This document shows, piece by piece, positions 9,533 to 51,387 of a stretch of 64,000 nucleotides of DNA; the first letter of the stretch is position 1, and each line of letters opens with the position of its first letter. Where the stretch lies: NCBI GenBank assembly GCA_900317285.1, contig ONGA01000010.1:1-64000 (forward strand). The letters run 5' to 3'. The notes under the pieces were generated by a model. It ran no database searches and was not told the origin of the DNA. It was given only the letters and a program-made list of their open reading frames with translations. A program made the translations under genes and the position numbers. This DNA comes from an uncultured Bacteroidales bacterium (lineage in GTDB: Bacteria; Bacteroidota; Bacteroidia; Bacteroidales; P3).

Positions 9533-9727
9533 GAGCCCCGTTGGGGCGACAGATGTTAGCCGTGGGCGTGAGCCCACGGTAGACAATAAACCAAACAGCC
9601 GAGCCCCGTAGGGGCGACACAATGACCATCGTTGGAATGTGCCGCCCCTACGGGGCTCAAAGTGTTTTCTCGATTTCATTCCGTGGGCTTACGCCCACGG
9701 CTAAATAATGTCGCCCCTACGGGGCTC
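9533..9727. repeat. Mirrored array of REP-like palindromes
   Basis: Two hairpin types alternate. Type A (GAGCCCCGTAGGGGCGACA or close) is at 9533-9551, 9601-9619, 9640-9658 (inverted) and 9709-9727 (inverted). Type B (CCGTGGGC-4 nt-GCCCACGG) is at 9560-9579 and 9681-9700. The order A-B-A / A'-B'-A' makes the whole block an imperfect inverted repeat. It starts 5 bases after the pheT stop codon. Confidence 0.9.
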
Positions 9728-9771
9728 CTGTCGCAAGTTGCGAAACCGTGTTTTAATTTTGAAACAGCCTG

Positions 9772-10017
9772 GCGACACTCATTTTTGGCGTTTTCAAAAT
9801 CGATTGGGCCTGGCGACACTCATTTTTTCCATTTTTAAAATCATTTGGGCCTAGCGACACTCTTTTTGGCCATTTTCAAAATCGATTGGGCCTTGCGACA
9901 CTCATTTTAGTCGTTTATAAAATCATTTGGGCTTTGCGACACTCATTTTTGCCATTTTCAAAATCATTTTGGCCTCGCGACAACCATTTGGGCCATTTTC
10001 AAACAGTTTGGGCTTTG
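9772..10017. repeat. 41-bp tandem repeat, six units
   Basis: The motif GCGACAC recurs at 9772, 9813, 9854, 9895, 9936 and 9977 (last copy GCGACAA), exactly 41 bp apart. Each unit continues with a CTCATTTTT-like run, ATTTTCAAAATC and TTGGGCC. Copies differ at several positions, so the array is not very recent. The period is not a multiple of three, which argues against coding. It ends 3 bases before the stop codon of the minus-strand gene at 10021, so it lies in that gene's 3' flank. Confidence 0.92.
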
Positions 10018-28220: not shown

Positions 28221-29348
<1,128 letters not shown>

Positions 29349-29379: not shown

Positions 29380-29422
29380 CAAAAAAAATTCCAAAAGGCC
29401 GGAAAATGTCAAAAAAAGTGTG

Positions 29423-29602
29423 TATTTTTGCAGTTGCAAAACGGGATGAAGAATCTAGACGAAAATCAAAATAGAGGCTGGTTATCAGATAGATAAGTAT
29501 TTGTAGCCTTGATTTTCAAAACAATACATTGCTTTAATTCACAAATAACTATGGTCGGTAGGTCTATGCTAGGTCTATGGTACCTCTATTGTAACTCTAT
29601 GG
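29423..29602 (+). ncRNA. Repeated 180-bp element, copy A: putative structured RNA with its own promoter box
   Basis: Starts with TATTTTTG (29423-29430). Arms GAAAATCAA (29461-29469) and TTGATTTTC (29509-29517) pair; after a 6-base bulge GGCT (29476-29479) pairs with AGCC (29505-29508); inside, TTATC (29482-29486) and GATAA (29492-29496) close an AGATA loop. From 29504 to 29602 it is identical to copy B (49325-49423). The end (29550-29602) is an 11-bp-period array with core GGTCTATGGTA. An 11-bp terminator hairpin follows at 29623. Expression is inferred, not shown; a MITE-like repeat is the alternative. Confidence 0.6.
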
Positions 29603-29622
29603 AAGTGGCTGGTTTGAATAAG

Positions 29623-29651
29623 AAATGCCTCCCGGAAGTGGGAGGCATTTT
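29623..29651. terminator. Strong bidirectional terminator hairpin
   Basis: AAATGCCTCCC (29623-29633) pairs perfectly with GGGAGGCATTT (29640-29650) around a 6-base loop, with a T-run on the plus strand. It lies 45 bases beyond the alaS stop (minus strand) and 21 bases beyond the repeated element (plus strand), so it can end both transcripts. Confidence 0.8.
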
Positions 29652-29695
29652 GTGTGGTGTGGTGAGGGGGCGGCGGTGTGTGCGCCCCGTGGGTG

Positions 29696-32290
29696 TTATC
29701 CGATGAGTTGTTTGGCGAGCTCGAGGGCACGGTCGATACCGTCGGGGTTTTTGCCGCCCGCGGTGGCGAAGAAGGGCTGACCGCCGCCGCCGCCCTGGAT
29801 TTCCTTGCCGAGGGTACGAACCATCTGTCCGGCGTTGAGTCCGGCGTCGACGCGCTGCTGTCCGAGGACGATGAGCAGGGCGGGTTTGTTGTCGGTGACG
29901 GAGGCGAGGACGACTGCCATGTCGGGGTTCTGGTTGCGCAGGGCGATGAGGGGGTCCTTGAGGGTGTTGACGTCGGTGTCGAGTCGCTGGATGAGGACGG
30001 GGTTGGCGCCGAGCTGTGCGGCGAGGCTGTTGACGATGCCTGCGGCTTTTTCCTTGCGGAGCTGTTCGACGGCGGCCTTGAGGGCGTTGTTGTCGTCCTG
30101 GAGTTTGGCGATGGAGGCGCTGAGGTCTTTGGTGCCTTTGAAGAGGTCGTTGAGTGCCGCGAGCTGGTCCTGCTGCTGGTCGGCGAAGTCGGTGGCTGCC
30201 TGGGCGGTGACGGCTTCGATGCGTCGCATGCCGGCTGCCACGGCGCCTTCGCTGACGATGCGGAAGGAGCCGATCATGCCTGTGTTGGCGACGTGCGTGC
30301 CGCCGCAGAATTCGACGCTGGGGCCGTATTTAACGACGCGGACGTGGTCGCCGTATTTCTCGCCGAAGAGTGCCATGGCGCCGAGTTTCTGTGCTTCGGC
30401 GATGGGCATGGCGCGGTGTTCCTCGAGGGGTATGCAGGCGCGTATCATGTTGTTGACGCGGTGTTCGACGTCGCGTATTTCTTCGTGGCTGAGTTTGGCG
30501 AAGTGGCTGAAGTCGAAGCGGAGGCGCTGGTCGTCGACGCTGGAGCCTTTCTGCTCGACGTGGTTGCCGAGGACCTGGCGGAGGGCGTAGTGCATGAGGT
30601 GTGTGGCGGTGTGGTTGTTGCCGATGGCCTGGCGGCGAGCGGCATCCACGCTGGCGTGGAAGGTGGCCGTCAAATCTTCAGGCAGGGCATCCACTATATG
30701 CACGATAAGTCCGTTTTCCTTCTTTGTGTTCGTTATGCGTGTTGCAACGCTGTTGCAGCATACTGAACCGGTGTCGCCAGTCTGGCCGCCGCTTTCGCCG
30801 TAGAAGGGAGTGCGGTCGAAGACGAGCTGGAAGAATTCTTTGTCTTTTGCTTTCACGCGGCGGTAGCGGGCGATGTGGACGTCGGCCTCAAGGGTGTCGT
30901 AGCCGACGAATTCCTGCTCGACGCCGGGCATGAGTTCCTGCCAGTCGTCGCTTTCCACCTTGGCGGCGCCACGGCTGCGCTCTTTCTGTTCGGCGAGGCC
31001 GCGGTTGAAGCCGTCCATGTCGACGGTGAGGCCTTTCTCGGAGGCCATGAGCTGGGTGAGGTCGATGGGGAAGCCGTAGGTGTCGAAGAGTTCGAAGGCG
31101 AAGGCACCGTCGACCACTTTGCCGTTGCATTTGGCGGCGTAGTCGTCGAAGCGGCGGATGCCGCCGGCGAGGGTGCGGAGGAAGGCCTGCTCCTCTTCGA
31201 GGATGATGCGCTGGATGAGTTCCTGCTGTTTCTGGAGCTCGGGGAACTGGTGACCCATCTGCGCCACGAGGGTGGGGACGAGGGTGTTGATGAAGGGCTC
31301 GTTGAAGCCGAGGAAGGTGTAGCCGTAGCGGACGGCACGGCGGAGGATGCGACGGATGACGTATCCGGCCTTGACGTTGGAGGGCAGCTGACCGTCGGCA
31401 ATGGAGAAGCTGACGGCGCGGAGGTGGTCGGCGCAGACGCGCATGGCGATGTCGGCCTGCTCATTGTCGCCGTAGCGTTTGCCGCATTTGGCAGCGATTT
31501 CCTGAATGAGGGGCTGGAAGACGTCGGTGTCGTAGTTGGAGCGTTTGCCCTGCATGACCATGCAGAGGCGCTCGAAGCCCATGCCGGTATCGATGTGCTT
31601 GGCTTTCAGGGGCTCAAGGGTTCCGTCGGCTTTACGGTTGAACTGCATGAAGACGAGGTTCCAGATTTCGATGACCTGGGGATTGTCCTTGTTGACGAGG
31701 TCTTTGCCGGGCACTTTGGCTTTTTCCTCGTCGGGACGAATGTCGACATGGATTTCGGAGCAGGGACCGCAGGGACCCTGGTCGCCCATTTCCCAGAAGT
31801 TGTCTTTTTTGGAGCCGCGGAGGATACGGTCCTCGCTGATGTGCTCTTTCCAGAAGTTGTAGGCTTCCATGTCCATTTCGAGGCCTTCCTTCTCGTCGCC
31901 GCCGAAGACGGTGACATAGAGCCAGTCCTTGTTTATCTTCATCACCTCGGTGAGGAATTCCCAGCCGTAGGCGATGGCTTCTTTCTTGAAATAATCGCCG
32001 AAGGACCAGTTGCCGAGCATCTCGAACATGGTGTGGTGGTAGGTGTCGTGGCCCACCTCCTCGAGGTCGTTGTGCTTGCCGCTGACGCGGAGGCACTTCT
32101 GGCTGTCGGTGGCGCGGGGCCATTGCGGCTGCCGGTTGCCGAGGAAGATGTCCTTGAACTGGTTCATGCCCGCGTTGGTGAACATCAGGGTCGGGTCGTT
32201 CTTGATGACCATGGGTGCGCTGGGCACCACCTGGTGTTGCTTGCTCTCGAAAAAGTCGAGGAATGCTTTGCGTATTTCGTTGCTTGTCAT
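29696..32290 (-). CDS. alaS: Alanyl-tRNA synthetase
   Basis: 864 residues from ATG 32290 (MTSNEIRKAFLDFFESKQH); an ATG two codons earlier is possible. Class II catalytic domain about 1-250 (SAPMVIKNDPTLMFTNAGMNQFKDIFLG; GNWSFGDYFKKEAI). The tRNA-recognition region follows (to about 450). The editing domain carries zinc ligands in HTATHLMHYAL (about 555-565) and FCGGTHVANTG (about 660-670), and the C-terminal oligomerisation domain (C-Ala, about 710-864) contains a coiled coil. The long frame upstream of ATG 32290 on this strand is a shadow of the GroES-like gene. Confidence 0.97.
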   Translation of the reverse strand: MTSNEIRKAFLDFFESKQHQVVPSAPMVIKNDPTLMFTNAGMNQFKDIFLGNRQPQWPRATDSQKCLRVSGKHNDLEEVGHDTYHHTMFEMLGNWSFGDYFKKEAIAYGWEFLTEVMKINKDWLYVTVFGGDEKEGLEMDMEAYNFWKEHISEDRILRGSKKDNFWEMGDQGPCGPCSEIHVDIRPDEEKAKVPGKDLVNKDNPQVIEIWNLVFMQFNRKADGTLEPLKAKHIDTGMGFERLCMVMQGKRSNYDTDVFQPLIQEIAAKCGKRYGDNEQADIAMRVCADHLRAVSFSIADGQLPSNVKAGYVIRRILRRAVRYGYTFLGFNEPFINTLVPTLVAQMGHQFPELQKQQELIQRIILEEEQAFLRTLAGGIRRFDDYAAKCNGKVVDGAFAFELFDTYGFPIDLTQLMASEKGLTVDMDGFNRGLAEQKERSRGAAKVESDDWQELMPGVEQEFVGYDTLEADVHIARYRRVKAKDKEFFQLVFDRTPFYGESGGQTGDTGSVCCNSVATRITNTKKENGLIVHIVDALPEDLTATFHASVDAARRQAIGNNHTATHLMHYALRQVLGNHVEQKGSSVDDQRLRFDFSHFAKLSHEEIRDVEHRVNNMIRACIPLEEHRAMPIAEAQKLGAMALFGEKYGDHVRVVKYGPSVEFCGGTHVANTGMIGSFRIVSEGAVAAGMRRIEAVTAQAATDFADQQQDQLAALNDLFKGTKDLSASIAKLQDDNNALKAAVEQLRKEKAAGIVNSLAAQLGANPVLIQRLDTDVNTLKDPLIALRNQNPDMAVVLASVTDNKPALLIVLGQQRVDAGLNAGQMVRTLGKEIQGGGGGQPFFATAGGKNPDGIDRALELAKQLIG

Positions 32291-32303
32291 AATCATTTGT
32301 TTA

Positions 32304-32660
32304 TCAAAATTCGTCGCGCTCGACCATGAGGATGCCGCTTTGCGGGACGATGAAGAATTTTTCTCCGTTGTATTTGATTTCGACGGCGTTTTTGAGCAGG
32401 AAAATTGCCATGTCGCCCGGACGTACCTGAAGGGGCAGGTAGCGGGGTTCGCGGTCGCCGGGGCGCCAGTCGTCGTCGGCCTCGCCGGGGAGGGGGTAGC
32501 CTGGGCCGCACTTGAGGATGTAGCCAGTCTGGATTTCCTCTTTTTCCTGATAGCCGGCAGGGAGCAGAAGGCCGCCCTTGGTCTTCTTGACGGCAGCTCC
32601 GGGCTGGATGAGCACGCGGTCGCCAATCACTATCAGATTGTCTATGTTGGGTTTCTGCAT
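32304..32660 (-). CDS. GroES-like co-chaperonin family protein
   Basis: 118 residues from ATG 32660. The Cpn10 pattern IVIGDRVLIQPGAAVKKTKGGLLLPAGYQEKEEIQTGYILKCGPG is clear at about 9-53. Beyond it an insertion EADDDWRPGDREPRYLPLQVRPGDMAIFLLKNAVEIKYNGEKFFIVPQSGIL makes it longer than the 95-residue GroES. No groEL is adjacent, and most Bacteroidota have a separate groES-groEL pair, so this is probably a paralogue. It lies 13 bases before alaS on the same strand, with its own promoter at 32684. Confidence 0.85.
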   Translation of the reverse strand: MQKPNIDNLIVIGDRVLIQPGAAVKKTKGGLLLPAGYQEKEEIQTGYILKCGPGYPLPGEADDDWRPGDREPRYLPLQVRPGDMAIFLLKNAVEIKYNGEKFFIVPQSGILMVERDEF

Positions 32661-47654: not shown

Positions 47655-49124
47655 TTATTCACCCAGCGCCTGCTTCAGGTACAGACGGTCCATCTCGATC
47701 TCGATGCGTGCGTCAAGGATGTCGCCCTTTGCCGAGAACCATGCCGTCTGCGCCGCCATCAGGTCGCTGCTGCTCGCTGCGCCAGCCTTGAAGCTCTCGT
47801 CGGCAAGTTTCAGGTTCTCCTCGGCATTTGCCAGGTTGCTTTGAGCCTGCGCCAGTTTCTTGTATGCCAGCTCAAGCTCGTAATTCAGCTTGTTCACCTG
47901 CAGCTCCACCATCTCCTGCGCCTCGGCCAGCTGGTACTCAACCTCCTTGCGCTTGTGCTTTGCCGCCTTCAGCGAATAAAACGAGCCCGGATGCAGGATG
48001 GGCACATTCACTACCACGCCGGCAGTGAACGTCCCGGCAAACTCGCGCTCGAAACCGTTGAACAGGTTGGGGTTCGTCACCAGATAGCCGCCCGTTACCG
48101 CCACATTCGGCAGCAGCGTCGAGCGCGCCATTCTCACACCCTCGCGGGCGATGCTGTCGCCAATGCGCAACATGCGCAACTCGCGGCGGTTCGCCATCAC
48201 ACTCTCCATATTTATACTCAGGGGTTCGTGGTCTGTAATCAGGGAGCTGTCGGCAGCATCGATGCCCTGCACGTCGAACTCCGAATTCAGCGGCATGCCG
48301 CAACGCTGCGCCAGCAGCATCTTCGCCAAAGCCAGACCGTTCGTCGCCTTCGTCAGGCTCATCTGCGCCTCGTTCAGCTTCACTCTCACCTTCGTCAGGT
48401 CGCCGCGCGTGGCCACCTCGGCCGCCACCATCTCCTCCACGTCGTGGTTCAGCGTGTCGAGCAATGCGGCATACTGCTCCGCCAGCTCTTTCTTGTGCTT
48501 CACGCTCACCACCTGCCAGTACGCCTCGTCGACGCCGATAAGCATCGCCTCGCGCTCCTTGTCGCATTCGATGCCCGCCAGGCGGTTCAGCAGACTCGCC
48601 GTGCGGTAGAGGCCCACCAGCTTGCCACCCATGTAGATGGGTTGCGTCACGGTCACCATTCCCGCCGTCACATTCCGCGAATCCGTCTCCAAAGCCTCCA
48701 CGATTCCCGCTCCCATGCCGTTCAGCGTCGCGGGAATGGAGCCGTTGGCTATCAGGTTCGAGATCGCCGTCTGGATATTCGTCGGCAGACCCATATTCTG
48801 AAGGTCCTGGTTGATGGCCGAGCTGATGGCCTGGTGGCTGTTCGTGCCCAGGTTGTTCAGGCGCTCCTTCTGCTCGTCGCTCAAGAGGTTCACACTCTTT
48901 TCTGTCCACATATAAGTGCCGTTGGCGCTCACCTTCGGCAACATCTGCCACAGCGCCACATTCTTCGTCGCACGCGTCTCCTCCACCTTCTCCTCGGCAC
49001 GCTTCAGCGCGTTGTTCGACTCCAGCGCCCGGCTTCTCAATTCCTCCAACGTCAGCACCTCCTGCCCGCGTGCACACACACACCCGAGAAGCGCCAACAC
49101 CGTGATTGACAATCCCTTTCTCAT
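47655..49124 (-). CDS. TolC family outer-membrane efflux protein
   Basis: 489 residues. Signal peptide MRKGLSITVLALLGCVCARG, then two tandem outer-membrane efflux repeats with long heptad helices (LTLEELRSRALESNNALKRAEEKVEETRATK; and KEVEYQLAEAQEMVELQVNKLNYELELAYKKLAQAQSNLANAEENLKLADESFKAG). Forms the trimeric exit duct. First gene of the operon, 33 bases before hlyD, with a promoter region at 49161-49220 that bears direct repeats. Confidence 0.92.
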   Translation of the reverse strand: MRKGLSITVLALLGCVCARGQEVLTLEELRSRALESNNALKRAEEKVEETRATKNVALWQMLPKVSANGTYMWTEKSVNLLSDEQKERLNNLGTNSHQAISSAINQDLQNMGLPTNIQTAISNLIANGSIPATLNGMGAGIVEALETDSRNVTAGMVTVTQPIYMGGKLVGLYRTASLLNRLAGIECDKEREAMLIGVDEAYWQVVSVKHKKELAEQYAALLDTLNHDVEEMVAAEVATRGDLTKVRVKLNEAQMSLTKATNGLALAKMLLAQRCGMPLNSEFDVQGIDAADSSLITDHEPLSINMESVMANRRELRMLRIGDSIAREGVRMARSTLLPNVAVTGGYLVTNPNLFNGFEREFAGTFTAGVVVNVPILHPGSFYSLKAAKHKRKEVEYQLAEAQEMVELQVNKLNYELELAYKKLAQAQSNLANAEENLKLADESFKAGAASSSDLMAAQTAWFSAKGDILDARIEIEMDRLYLKQALGE

Positions 49125-49160: not shown

Positions 49161-49220
49161 CAAAGATACAACTTTTTCCAGTAGTTAATGTAGTTAAATG
49201 AAGTTAAAAGTAGTTAAAGG
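49161..49220 (-). promoter_or_regulatory. tolC operon promoter with 10-bp direct repeats
   Basis: TATCTTTG on the minus strand (49168-49161), 37 bases before the tolC ATG at 49124. No TTG lies at the -33 position. Instead four copies of (T/A)AGTTAA on the plus strand, at 49182, 49191, 49201 and 49211, fall there and upstream. The spacing (9-10 bp) puts them on one face of the helix, as expected of an activator binding as a dimer or tetramer. Confidence 0.65.
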
Positions 49221-49243
49221 GCAAATGAATCGGAAAAACTTCG

Positions 49244-49423
49244 TATCTTTGCAGATGCAAAACGGGATGAAGAATCCATGCGAAAATCAAAAAATTGGCT
49301 GATTATCAGATAGATAATTAAAAATAGCCTTGATTTTCAAAACAATACATTGCTTTAATTCACAAATAACTATGGTCGGTAGGTCTATGCTAGGTCTATG
49401 GTACCTCTATTGTAACTCTATGG
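49244..49423 (+). ncRNA. Repeated 180-bp element, copy B: putative structured RNA upstream of argS
   Basis: Same length and orientation as copy A. TATCTTTG at 49244-49251; arms GAAAATCAA (49282-49290) and TTGATTTTC (49330-49338) with the same bulge and GGCT/AGCC stack; the inner hairpin is extended by one pair (ATTATC/GATAAT). Bases 49325-49423 match copy A without a difference. The array of 11-base units is at 49371-49423. No strong terminator follows, so the transcript may read into argS, which also has its own promoter at 49501. RNA status is inferred. Confidence 0.6.
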
Positions 49424-49500
49424 ATTCACCATAGTCACGGGAGAAGGATGGGAGGGCTGTTTGTGGGGATGTTTTTTCCACTAATTTTGTTTTATTTTCC

Positions 49501-49560: not shown

Positions 49561-51387
49561 ATGGATATCACACTCTCTCTTTCACAGGCAGTTGCGCAAG
49601 TATTAAAATCCCTTTACGGCATCGAGGCCGAGGCCGAAAGTGTCGTGCTTCAGGACACCCGCAAGGAATTCAAGGGCGACTACACGCTGGTCGTGTTCCC
49701 GTATGTCAAGCAGGCCCGCAAGAGCCCGGAGGCGGTCGCCAACGAAATCGGTGCCGCCGTCAAGGAGCTTCTCCCCGAGGTTGCAGGCTACAATGTCATC
49801 AAAGGTTTCCTCAACTTTGAGATTGCCGACTCCTACTGGTCCCGCTTCGTCGGCGAGAACGCTGAAGACAGCCGCTTCGGTCTTGCCAAGACCAATCCTG
49901 CGGAAGCTCCAGTAGTGGTTGAATATTCGTCACCTAACACCAATAAACCCTTGCACTTAGGTCATATCAGAAATAACCTATTGGGTTGGTCGGTGAGCTG
50001 CCTGCTCGAGGCTGCCGGTGCCAATGTGAAGAAGGTGAACCTGGTGAACGACCGCGGCATTCACATCTGCAAAAGCATGTTGGCGTGGAAGCTCTACGGC
50101 AACGGCGAGACCCCCGAAAGCAGCGGCATGAAGGGAGACCACCTCGTGGGCAAATACTACGTGGAGTACGACAAACATTACAAAGAAGAGGTCAAGAAAC
50201 TGATGGAGAGTGGGGTAGAGGAGGAGCAAGCGAAGAAGGATGCCCCCCTGATGGTGGAAGCCCAGAGCATGCTCAAGCGTTGGGAAGAGGGTGACAAGGA
50301 GGTGCGCGACCTGTGGGAGAAGATGAATGGCTGGGTGTATGCCGGCTTCGACGAGACCTACCGCCGCCTGGGTGTAGGTTTCGACAAAGTGTACTACGAA
50401 TCGAACACCTATCTGCTCGGCAAAGAGCTCGTGCAGAAGGGTTTGGATATGGGCGTGCTGTTCCGCAAGGAAGACGGCTCGGTGTGGTGCGACCTCACGG
50501 GCGACGGTCTCGACCAGAAGCTGTTGCTCCGCAAGGACGGCACCAGCGTCTACATGACGCAGGACCTCGGCACCGCCCTGCTGCGCCACAACGACTTCGG
50601 CGCCGAAAGGCTGATTTATGTTGTTGGCAATGAGCAGGATTACCATTTCAAAGTGTTGAAACTCATCCTTGGAAAACTGGGCTTCGAGTGGGCCGACAAG
50701 GTTTACCACCTCAGCTACGGCATGGTGGAACTGCCCAACGGCAAGATGAAAAGCCGCGAGGGCACCGTCGTCGATGCCGACGACCTGATGGACGAGATGG
50801 AGAAGACCGCCGAGGAGATGAGCCGCGAGCACGGCAAGAACGACGAACTCCCCGCCGAGGAGCAGCAGCACCTCTACCATATACTGGCCCTGGGAGCACT
50901 CAAATACTTCATTCTCAAGGTCGACCCCACCAAGAACATGCTCTTCAACCCCGCCGAAAGCATCGACTTCAACGGCAATACCGGCCCCTTCATCCAGTAT
51001 ACCCATGCCCGTATCCGCAGCATTGTACGCAAAGCAGAGAATTCGGAATTCGGGATTCTGAATTCGGAATTAGCTGACGCAAAAAATAACTCTGAATTCC
51101 GAATTCCGAATTCCGAACTTACAGAGAAGGAGAGGGGAGTGGTGAAGGCGCTGCACGCGCTGCCGCAGACCATCAAGGCTGCCGCCGCTGCCTACAGCCC
51201 CGCCATGGTGGCAAACTACGCCTACGACCTGGCCAAAGCCTTCAACAGTTTCTACCAAGACACGCCCATCCTGCGCGAGAGCAATCCCGAAGTGAAGCAG
51301 TTCCGCGTGCAGCTGTGCGCTTTTGTTGCCAATGCACTGAAAAACACGATGAATATCCTTGGCATCGAGGTGCCGGAGAGGATGTAA
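49561..51387 (+). CDS. argS: Arginyl-tRNA synthetase with an in-frame palindromic insertion
   Basis: 608 residues from ATG 49561; earlier ATGs lie at or just after the -7 box. N-terminal additional domain (about 1-110), HIGH-type KPLHLGH (about 136-142), catalytic core (YVVGNEQDYHF, YGMVELPNGKMKSREGTVVDADDL with the KMSKS equivalent at about 395-401), then the DALR anticodon-binding domain at the C-terminus (about 530-608). At residues 493-520 an extra stretch, NSEFGILNSELADAKNNSEF..., is encoded by a long EcoRI-site-rich palindrome (51039-51120). It lies in the hinge between catalytic and anticodon domains, where an insertion is likely tolerated. Confidence 0.96.
   Translation: MDITLSLSQAVAQVLKSLYGIEAEAESVVLQDTRKEFKGDYTLVVFPYVKQARKSPEAVANEIGAAVKELLPEVAGYNVIKGFLNFEIADSYWSRFVGENAEDSRFGLAKTNPAEAPVVVEYSSPNTNKPLHLGHIRNNLLGWSVSCLLEAAGANVKKVNLVNDRGIHICKSMLAWKLYGNGETPESSGMKGDHLVGKYYVEYDKHYKEEVKKLMESGVEEEQAKKDAPLMVEAQSMLKRWEEGDKEVRDLWEKMNGWVYAGFDETYRRLGVGFDKVYYESNTYLLGKELVQKGLDMGVLFRKEDGSVWCDLTGDGLDQKLLLRKDGTSVYMTQDLGTALLRHNDFGAERLIYVVGNEQDYHFKVLKLILGKLGFEWADKVYHLSYGMVELPNGKMKSREGTVVDADDLMDEMEKTAEEMSREHGKNDELPAEEQQHLYHILALGALKYFILKVDPTKNMLFNPAESIDFNGNTGPFIQYTHARIRSIVRKAENSEFGILNSELADAKNNSEFRIPNSELTEKERGVVKALHALPQTIKAAAAAYSPAMVANYAYDLAKAFNSFYQDTPILRESNPEVKQFRVQLCAFVANALKNTMNILGIEVPERM
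51039..51120. repeat. Palindromic GAATTCGG repeat inserted in argS
   Basis: The left block 51039-51071 is built of GAATTCGG units and the right block 51094-51120 of CCGAATTC units; they are imperfect reverse complements separated by about 22 bases. The whole keeps the argS frame and adds about 27 residues. The 13-mer GAATTCGGAATTC and its relatives do not occur elsewhere in the window. Confidence 0.85.

Follow-up and report, generated by a model that had tools for sequence, protein, structure and literature searches.

The intergenic region between tgt (queuine tRNA-ribosyltransferase; 28221–29348, minus strand; Pfam TGT, E 2.5e-154) and alaS (29696–32626, minus strand; Pfam tRNA-synt_2c, tRNA_SAD and DHHA1) of the 64-kb stretch of DNA analysed, referred to here as the window, contains an element at 29423–29602 (copy A). 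On the plus strand, an A/T-rich promoter region (29390–29422) precedes a TAnnTTTG box (TATTTTTG, 29423–29430), a 5′ leader (29431–29460) which is partly common to copies with other bodies, a hairpin region (29461–29517), a stretch conserved in alignment A1 on the 3′ side of the stem (AAAACAATACATTGCTTTAATTCAC..., 29518–29549) and an 11-bp tandem array with a shortened 3′ end (29550–29606; lag-11 identity 0.68). The hairpin region is made up of an outer stem (29461–29468/29510–29517), an inner stem (29477–29480/29504–29507) and a small stem (29482–29486/29492–29496). Further 3′ lies a terminator-like hairpin, not assigned to a strand, with a perfect 11-bp stem, an A run on its 5′ side and a T run on its 3′ side (29623–29650).

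A second copy (copy B, 49244–49423) lies between a gene for an outer membrane efflux protein (47655–49124, minus strand; Pfam OEP) and argS (49561–51387, plus strand; Pfam tRNA-synt_1d and Arg_tRNA_synt_N). It has an AGTTAAA-rich upstream stretch common to 10 other copies (49169–49243), a box (TATCTTTG, 49244–49251), a hairpin region (49282–49338) and an array with some units missing (49373–49436), all on the plus strand; the end of this array, ATTCACCATAGTCA, looks by eye like that of copy L014. A gap-free alignment bore out to the base what the first-pass annotation had described, namely two copies of equal length and orientation with 14 differences, the last at 29503, and 99 identical final bases; the similarity is far beyond chance (BLAST E 9.5e-65). 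The stem strings named in that annotation, which in copy A are a 9-bp stem (GAAAATCAA, 29461–29469, with TTGATTTTC, 29509–29517), a 4-bp stem (GGCT from 29476 with AGCC from 29505) and an inner hairpin (TTATC from 29482 with GATAA from 29492), were found in both copies, and none of the 14 differences falls within their arms. When the window was scanned at lags of 7 to 15, only lag 11 passed, at copies A and B.

Elsewhere in the window, the Rfam model Acido-Lenti-1 (cut-off 37) was matched at 9534–9579 (minus strand, 50.9 bits) and 9681–9726 (plus strand, 56.8 bits). This opposite-strand pair lies amid GAGCCCCGTAGGGGCGACA repeats in both orientations, and behind it, at 9760–10010, about five direct repeats of approximately 58 bp (GGCGACACTCATTTTTGGC...) are visible by eye.

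The element proved not to be a two-copy feature, with 32 further tail places in the host genome beyond copies A and B. In this genome (2.07 Mb across 28 contigs), BLAST returned 35 matches, two of them representing the halves of a single element. With only the tail as query, 34 strong places were obtained, followed by six weak ones with E > 0.01, and a covariance model trained on 22 class I bodies matched 24 bodies. Of the 34 tail places, 33 were read, C13 being left out as it is cut by a contig end. All 33 carry a TAnnTTTG box within the 150 bases searched, against a background for this motif of 0.29 per kb and strand over the entire window, genes included. Measured to a fixed tail position, the box lies 152 bp away in 18 of the 33 copies, or in 19 with L021 represented by its second box; in the other 15 the distance ranges, with the nearest box taken, from 74 bp (L027, a deletion copy) to 174 bp. 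Bodies other than class I are combined with a box and tail in L025, L026 and L028, L029, L030, L059, L060 and L078, with the 152-bp spacing kept in L025 and L078, while L027 retains box and tail with most of the body gone. An AGTTAAA-rich upstream stretch of up to approximately 75 bp is common to 11 copies; the other 22 have nothing in common at 41–60 bases 5′ of the box (mean 0.11 bit). There are promoters of at least two makes, with the box as the constant part.

The element had no match at cut-off in an Rfam scan of the window, and no match for 29380–29680 reached cut-off in a scan at a relaxed threshold either, by which identity with a known Rfam family was rejected. Identity with phage or plasmid sequences was likewise rejected, with no match among 50,697 and 72,556 records, and the array pattern was found in no viral contig stretch. 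A literature search of titles and abstract openings, covering few subscription journals, gave nothing on the element or on 11-bp intergenic arrays in Bacteroidales.

The body was examined in an alignment of 22 class I sequences (A1), from which the deletion copies L023, L024 and L027 were excluded. The outer stem (columns 32–39 with 81–88) is paired in all 22 sequences, and five of its eight pairs are invariant. The first-pass annotation had held the paired arms to be conserved, and for these eight pairs the claim extends to the 20 class I copies it had not seen, where 160 of 160 cells are intact and the six changed cells are all G-U. It does not extend to the 18 pairs as originally written, which hold in 86.1% of cells: of those 20 copies, 14 have a broken ninth outer pair and 16 a broken first pair in GGCT/AGCC. 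In the inner stem (columns 48–51 with 75–78), 7 of 88 cells lack pairing and many one-sided G-U changes are seen; in the TTATC/GATAA stem, 14 of 110 cells lack pairing. Among the deletion copies, L023 has a shortened 3′ arm and L024 and L027 have none, and all three retain box and tail despite the loss.

Compensatory changes are few. Double-sided pair changes number three against a shuffle mean of 2.1, and RNAalifold credited the body with little covariation (−0.41 kcal/mol, one compensated pair). A 12-pair core, picked by a folding rule which permits G-U after the alignment had been viewed, contains 235 Watson-Crick pairs, 22 G-U, one A-C and six mismatches. Mapped onto a tree, the changes in the core columns include 17 of the kinds A>G and C>T against 5 of the kinds G>A and T>C, compared with 59 to 64 elsewhere (Fisher p 0.019), the copies not being independent of one another. 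With the full 18 pairs the excess of G-U is gone (22 G-U against 21 A-C, 14 of the latter counts coming from one helix-end pair), and the asymmetry of G-U over A-C is thus weakened, as it hinges on the omission of two of these pairs. On this evidence, it is likely that a hairpin is formed by an RNA of the promoter strand.

A coding role was also considered. Many copies have an ATG in the leader, as would be expected of a gene for a short peptide, but neither the start codon nor the frame is conserved: L003 has a one-base gap and no ATG, and the leaders of L006 and L012 also lack one. The unit is therefore regarded as noncoding, as had been argued from copies A and B, and a peptide gene as extremely improbable.

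About ten imperfect 11-bp units, arranged as a direct array, make up the tail; within them the core TCTATGGTA is nearly invariant and two positions are free (GG, AC, CC and others). In the four copies measured (L003, L012, L029 and L060), identity over 136 bp was 0.53–0.59 at lag 11 and did not exceed 0.36 at any other lag between 3 and 16. The array extends past the 3′ end of the window copies in 31 of the 33 copies, and most of the longer arrays reach, by eye, a stretch like CCTATGTCA. In seven copies (L003, L004, L006 and L009–L012) the convergent gene has its stop codon no more than 7 bases from the nominal end of the array. A transcript of about 220 nt ended by the hairpin at 29623–29650 had been proposed for copy A. 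The hairpin and its T run are present; a scan requiring a perfect stem found an intrinsic terminator behind only three of the 33 copies. Since the terminator is not a feature of the family, such a transcript would be peculiar to copy A and the hairpin was rejected as part of the unit. Its flanking A and T runs suggest that it is possibly shared with alaS.

The copies show an orientation bias relative to the neighboring genes. Genes were called by script to the left of 31 copies (L004 and L078 being without a left call) and to the right of all 33, with some of the called genes hundreds of bases distant (L006, L007, L018 and L019). The left gene is divergent in 26 of 31 copies by script and in 27 after hand reading of L023 (p 3.4e-5 for 27), and among the 33 right-hand genes 23 are convergent. 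Among the 40 of 64 flanking proteins run through Pfam, 38 of which were matched, the neighbors are diverse and mainly the products of core genes; names read from their domains include tgt, alaS, argS, recA, Clp ATPase, mnmA, ffh, priA, recJ, pgk, pfk, clpX and topA.

Outside the host genome the body was not recovered. The body model, run with stricter filters under which weak matches may be lost, had no match among a capped number of scored candidates in 118 other genomes of the genus or in 189 other genomes of the family (12 genera), so that among these candidates the body is present in one of 190 family genomes. A match to tgt was obtained in 29 of 31 genomes, and in all seven relatives with alaS directly upstream there is no element in between. 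This empty site suggests that copy A was either gained in the host lineage or lost in all seven syntenic relatives. In five relatives (G002, G008, G009, G021 and G022) an apparent small ORF of 80–90 codons is visible by eye between alaS and tgt; it is absent from the species of the window, where copy A occupies the site.

Both the restricted spread and the seven empty sites fit an element that has moved. One explanation is that the unit is a non-autonomous mobile repeat which happens to carry a promoter, with the hairpin and array serving its movement or being carried as baggage and with an RNA that has no job. The upstream stretch common to 11 copies, the shortened tail and 99 identical bases common to copies A and B, and the persistence of deletion copies are all consistent with this. 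The marks of a MITE, which the first-pass annotation had named as the alternative, were however not consistently present. No word recurs as a terminal inverted repeat in more than two of the 33 copies within the 125-base flanks of either end, a distance beyond which more remote ends would be missed. The longest exact inverted matches between these flanks are of 5–12 bases compared with 5–9 in one shuffle per copy, with three copies exceeding the shuffled range. Direct matches between the flanks are of 5–10 bases, with ragged element ends and no shuffled control, and show no consistent target-site duplication. The retention of the box in every copy and the orientation bias relative to neighboring genes also argue against a mobile repeat, the principal competitor of the preferred reading and an explanation that we regard as possible although on the whole unlikely.

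Arrays of the same period were also found outside the host genome. The core of the array pattern occurs in two of 120 genomes of the genus, with 64 matches in G000 (the genome of the window) and seven in G040. A scan of one genome per species across 84,980 species gave 17 stretches, 16 of which are in Bacteroidetes records, and several of the matched records bear RUG or RUI names, which we take to denote rumen MAGs. The remaining stretch (L127), on a contig titled as a Thermoplasmatota MAG, consists of drifting 11-bp arrays and may reflect a binning error or convergence.

In sister species the arrays are built from other units. G024 has 45 exact places of TGTACNNNTACTGTACNNNTAC, a word that had no match when three other genomes were searched, and its arrays are inverted, with TGTACAAGTAC-like units (e.g. 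L206, L207 and L212). Of 20 loci read in this genome, none has a box directed at the array on its left and two have one on its right; arrays of period 11 thus need no promoter box there. The flanks of these 20 loci are partly conserved on one side. Seven arrays were found in 100 kb of G028, all at lag 11 among lags 7 to 16, and in five of the seven TGTTCTTCGAT lies in inverted arms, forming hairpins of approximately four 11-bp units per arm (L235–L237). G002 has six arrays at lag 11 in 200 kb, mainly of CAACACCGTAC. In the same 200 kb (L224–L233), imperfect arrays at other lags were also seen, namely 35 at lag 7, ten at lag 8, nine at lag 9 and six at lag 10. The 60 kb of G014 scanned contain a single lag-11 array alongside seven of lag 8, and no lag-11 array was found in 40 kb of G026. 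No arrays arose when the 400 kb scanned were shuffled once. An RNA polymerase pause consensus was considered for the units and rejected; by eye, it fits G000 and some relatives and not G024 or G028.

Arrays also recur at particular loci. Upstream of argS, the site of copy B, a lag-11 array passes the threshold in six of 13 relatives, with differing units, those of G021 and G008 being visible by eye as well. A lag-11 array lies behind pgk in four of 13 relatives (G004 covered for 136 bases only) and before recA in one of 11 (G023 covered for 187 bases only); because arrays occur at these sites too, they may simply be common, rather than orthologously kept at argS. A second kind of unit is found in both G024 and G028, and G023 and G024 have one in common behind pgk, so that species do not strictly keep to one word each. 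The motif YTGANNNHCAG was found within 170 bp of the array in 29 of 33 cases in G000, 5 of 18 in G024 (two of the 20 loci having no array at the threshold), 4 of 7 in G028, 2 of 6 in G002, 0 of 2 in G014, 1 of 4 in G040 and 1 of 14 elsewhere, against a background of 0.07–0.19 per 400 bp. The association of this motif with the arrays is suggestive only.

These findings bear on a second explanation, in which the unit acts at the level of DNA as a helically phased row of 11-bp sites for a protein of chromosome or transcription boundaries, with the promoter and body secondary. The recurrence of period-11 arrays with differing units in relatives (the seven in 100 kb of G028 and six in 200 kb of G002), the 45 exact places in G024 and the arrays upstream of argS in six of 13 relatives would all be accommodated by it. 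Against it, every array in G000 (33 of 33) is preceded by a promoter box, other periods outnumber 11 in G002 and period 8 does so in G014, the 40 kb of G026 has no period-11 array, and the inverted arrays of G024 and G028 are equally explained by a hairpin RNA or a cruciform. We consider a DNA-level element distinctly doubtful. A broader proposal is that the species of the genus keep their own 11-bp words in tens of intergenic elements, with a dominant word that differs genome-wide between species and, in one of them, is joined to a promoter and a structured RNA; this would imply a fast-evolving trans-acting reader. The proposal is put forward tentatively and seems rather unlikely; if true, the reader, whether protein or RNA, would provide the arrays with a genuine function, for example in bounding or ending transcription.

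The reading preferred here, with a probability of roughly 0.5, is that copy A is one of approximately 34 intergenic copies of a lineage-specific, promoter-driven noncoding RNA unit that resembles the BrickBuilt and PINSR elements in its setting. The small RNA suggested at first is partly supported, by the box in 33 of 33 copies, the kept outer eight pairs, the lack of a conserved reading frame and the absence of an Rfam match at cut-off; counting against it are the two failing pairs, the three arm deletions, double changes no more frequent than in shuffles and a terminator in only three of 33 copies. Gene conversion or recent spread could account for the near-identical tails behind unlike bodies, a point which also counts against the preferred reading. 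The element is real, and it is more interesting than an inert two-copy repeat and less certain than an established small RNA.

Under the preferred reading, the promoter would make an RNA of 200–250 nt, leading away from the divergent left neighbor and toward, and often antisense to, the right neighbor. The folded body would be the acting part, and the 11-nt units, each TCTATGGTA plus two free positions, may serve as successive sites to which a protein binds, on RNA or DNA. It is suspected that the array also ends or holds up transcription, because an intrinsic terminator lies behind only three of the 33 copies. The unit would have spread as DNA with its own promoter, as at least the 11 copies with common upstream sequence suggest. 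If transcribed, it would constitute a large paralogous RNA family within one Bacteroidales genome. The 11-bp arrays with differing units in sister species offer a ready natural experiment on their reader.

Several known systems share parts of this anatomy. REP elements also occur as many short intergenic copies, some of them transcribed, but they are palindromes of 20–40 bp, many with GTAG or CGTC ends, rather than a direct 11-bp array (PMC3733652, PMC12306157). PINSR is a 188-bp noncoding intergenic repeat, limited to a lineage, with 177 and 184 copies in two strains. By description, the element reported here is similarly noncoding, intergenic, high in copy number, lineage-limited and without terminal inverted repeats, whereas the PINSR description, as far as available, reports no promoter, RNA fold or 11-bp array.

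The FopS/GibS family of Bacteroides thetaiotaomicron comprises 14 paralogous sRNAs of approximately 65–70 nt (PMC11697453). These too are dispersed, paralogous and promoter-driven RNA genes, with sigma-ABfr promoters in their case and a promoter predicted from sequence in ours. Their anatomy differs in having a single-stranded 5′ part and an intrinsic terminator (PMC11697453), the latter found here in three of 33 copies by the perfect-stem scan. The Rfam model of GibS scored 18.2 bits against a cut-off of 115 in 29380–29680, and FopS, whose model may be absent from the library, had no match in the Rfam scans of the window or of 29380–29680.

The closest parallel is BrickBuilt, a species-limited MITE-minisatellite of Porphyromonas gingivalis with 19 copies in one strain, for which promoter activity in E. 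coli, transcripts in RNA-seq and a suggested role as mobile promoter have been reported (PMC4596501). Both elements are intergenic and restricted in distribution and consist of a leader, a run of tandem repeats and a tail, both carry an internal promoter, predicted in our case from the box in 33 of 33 copies, and one BrickBuilt copy lies upstream of argS, as does copy B (PMC4596501). BrickBuilt differs in its units of 23 nt, compared with a period of 11 here, in a copy as long as 991 nt, in 4-bp duplications at two sites and in bidirectional promoters; it has terminal inverted repeats, which do not recur here within 125 bases of the ends, and the account available to us describes no conserved RNA body of the kind predicted here (PMC4596501). 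Membership in BrickBuilt thus appears to fail on unit length and inverted ends. BrickBuilt is the best guide to how the unit may work. If transcribed, the unit would unite dispersed sRNA families such as FopS with repeat-bearing intergenic elements such as BrickBuilt and PINSR, which have so far been described apart.
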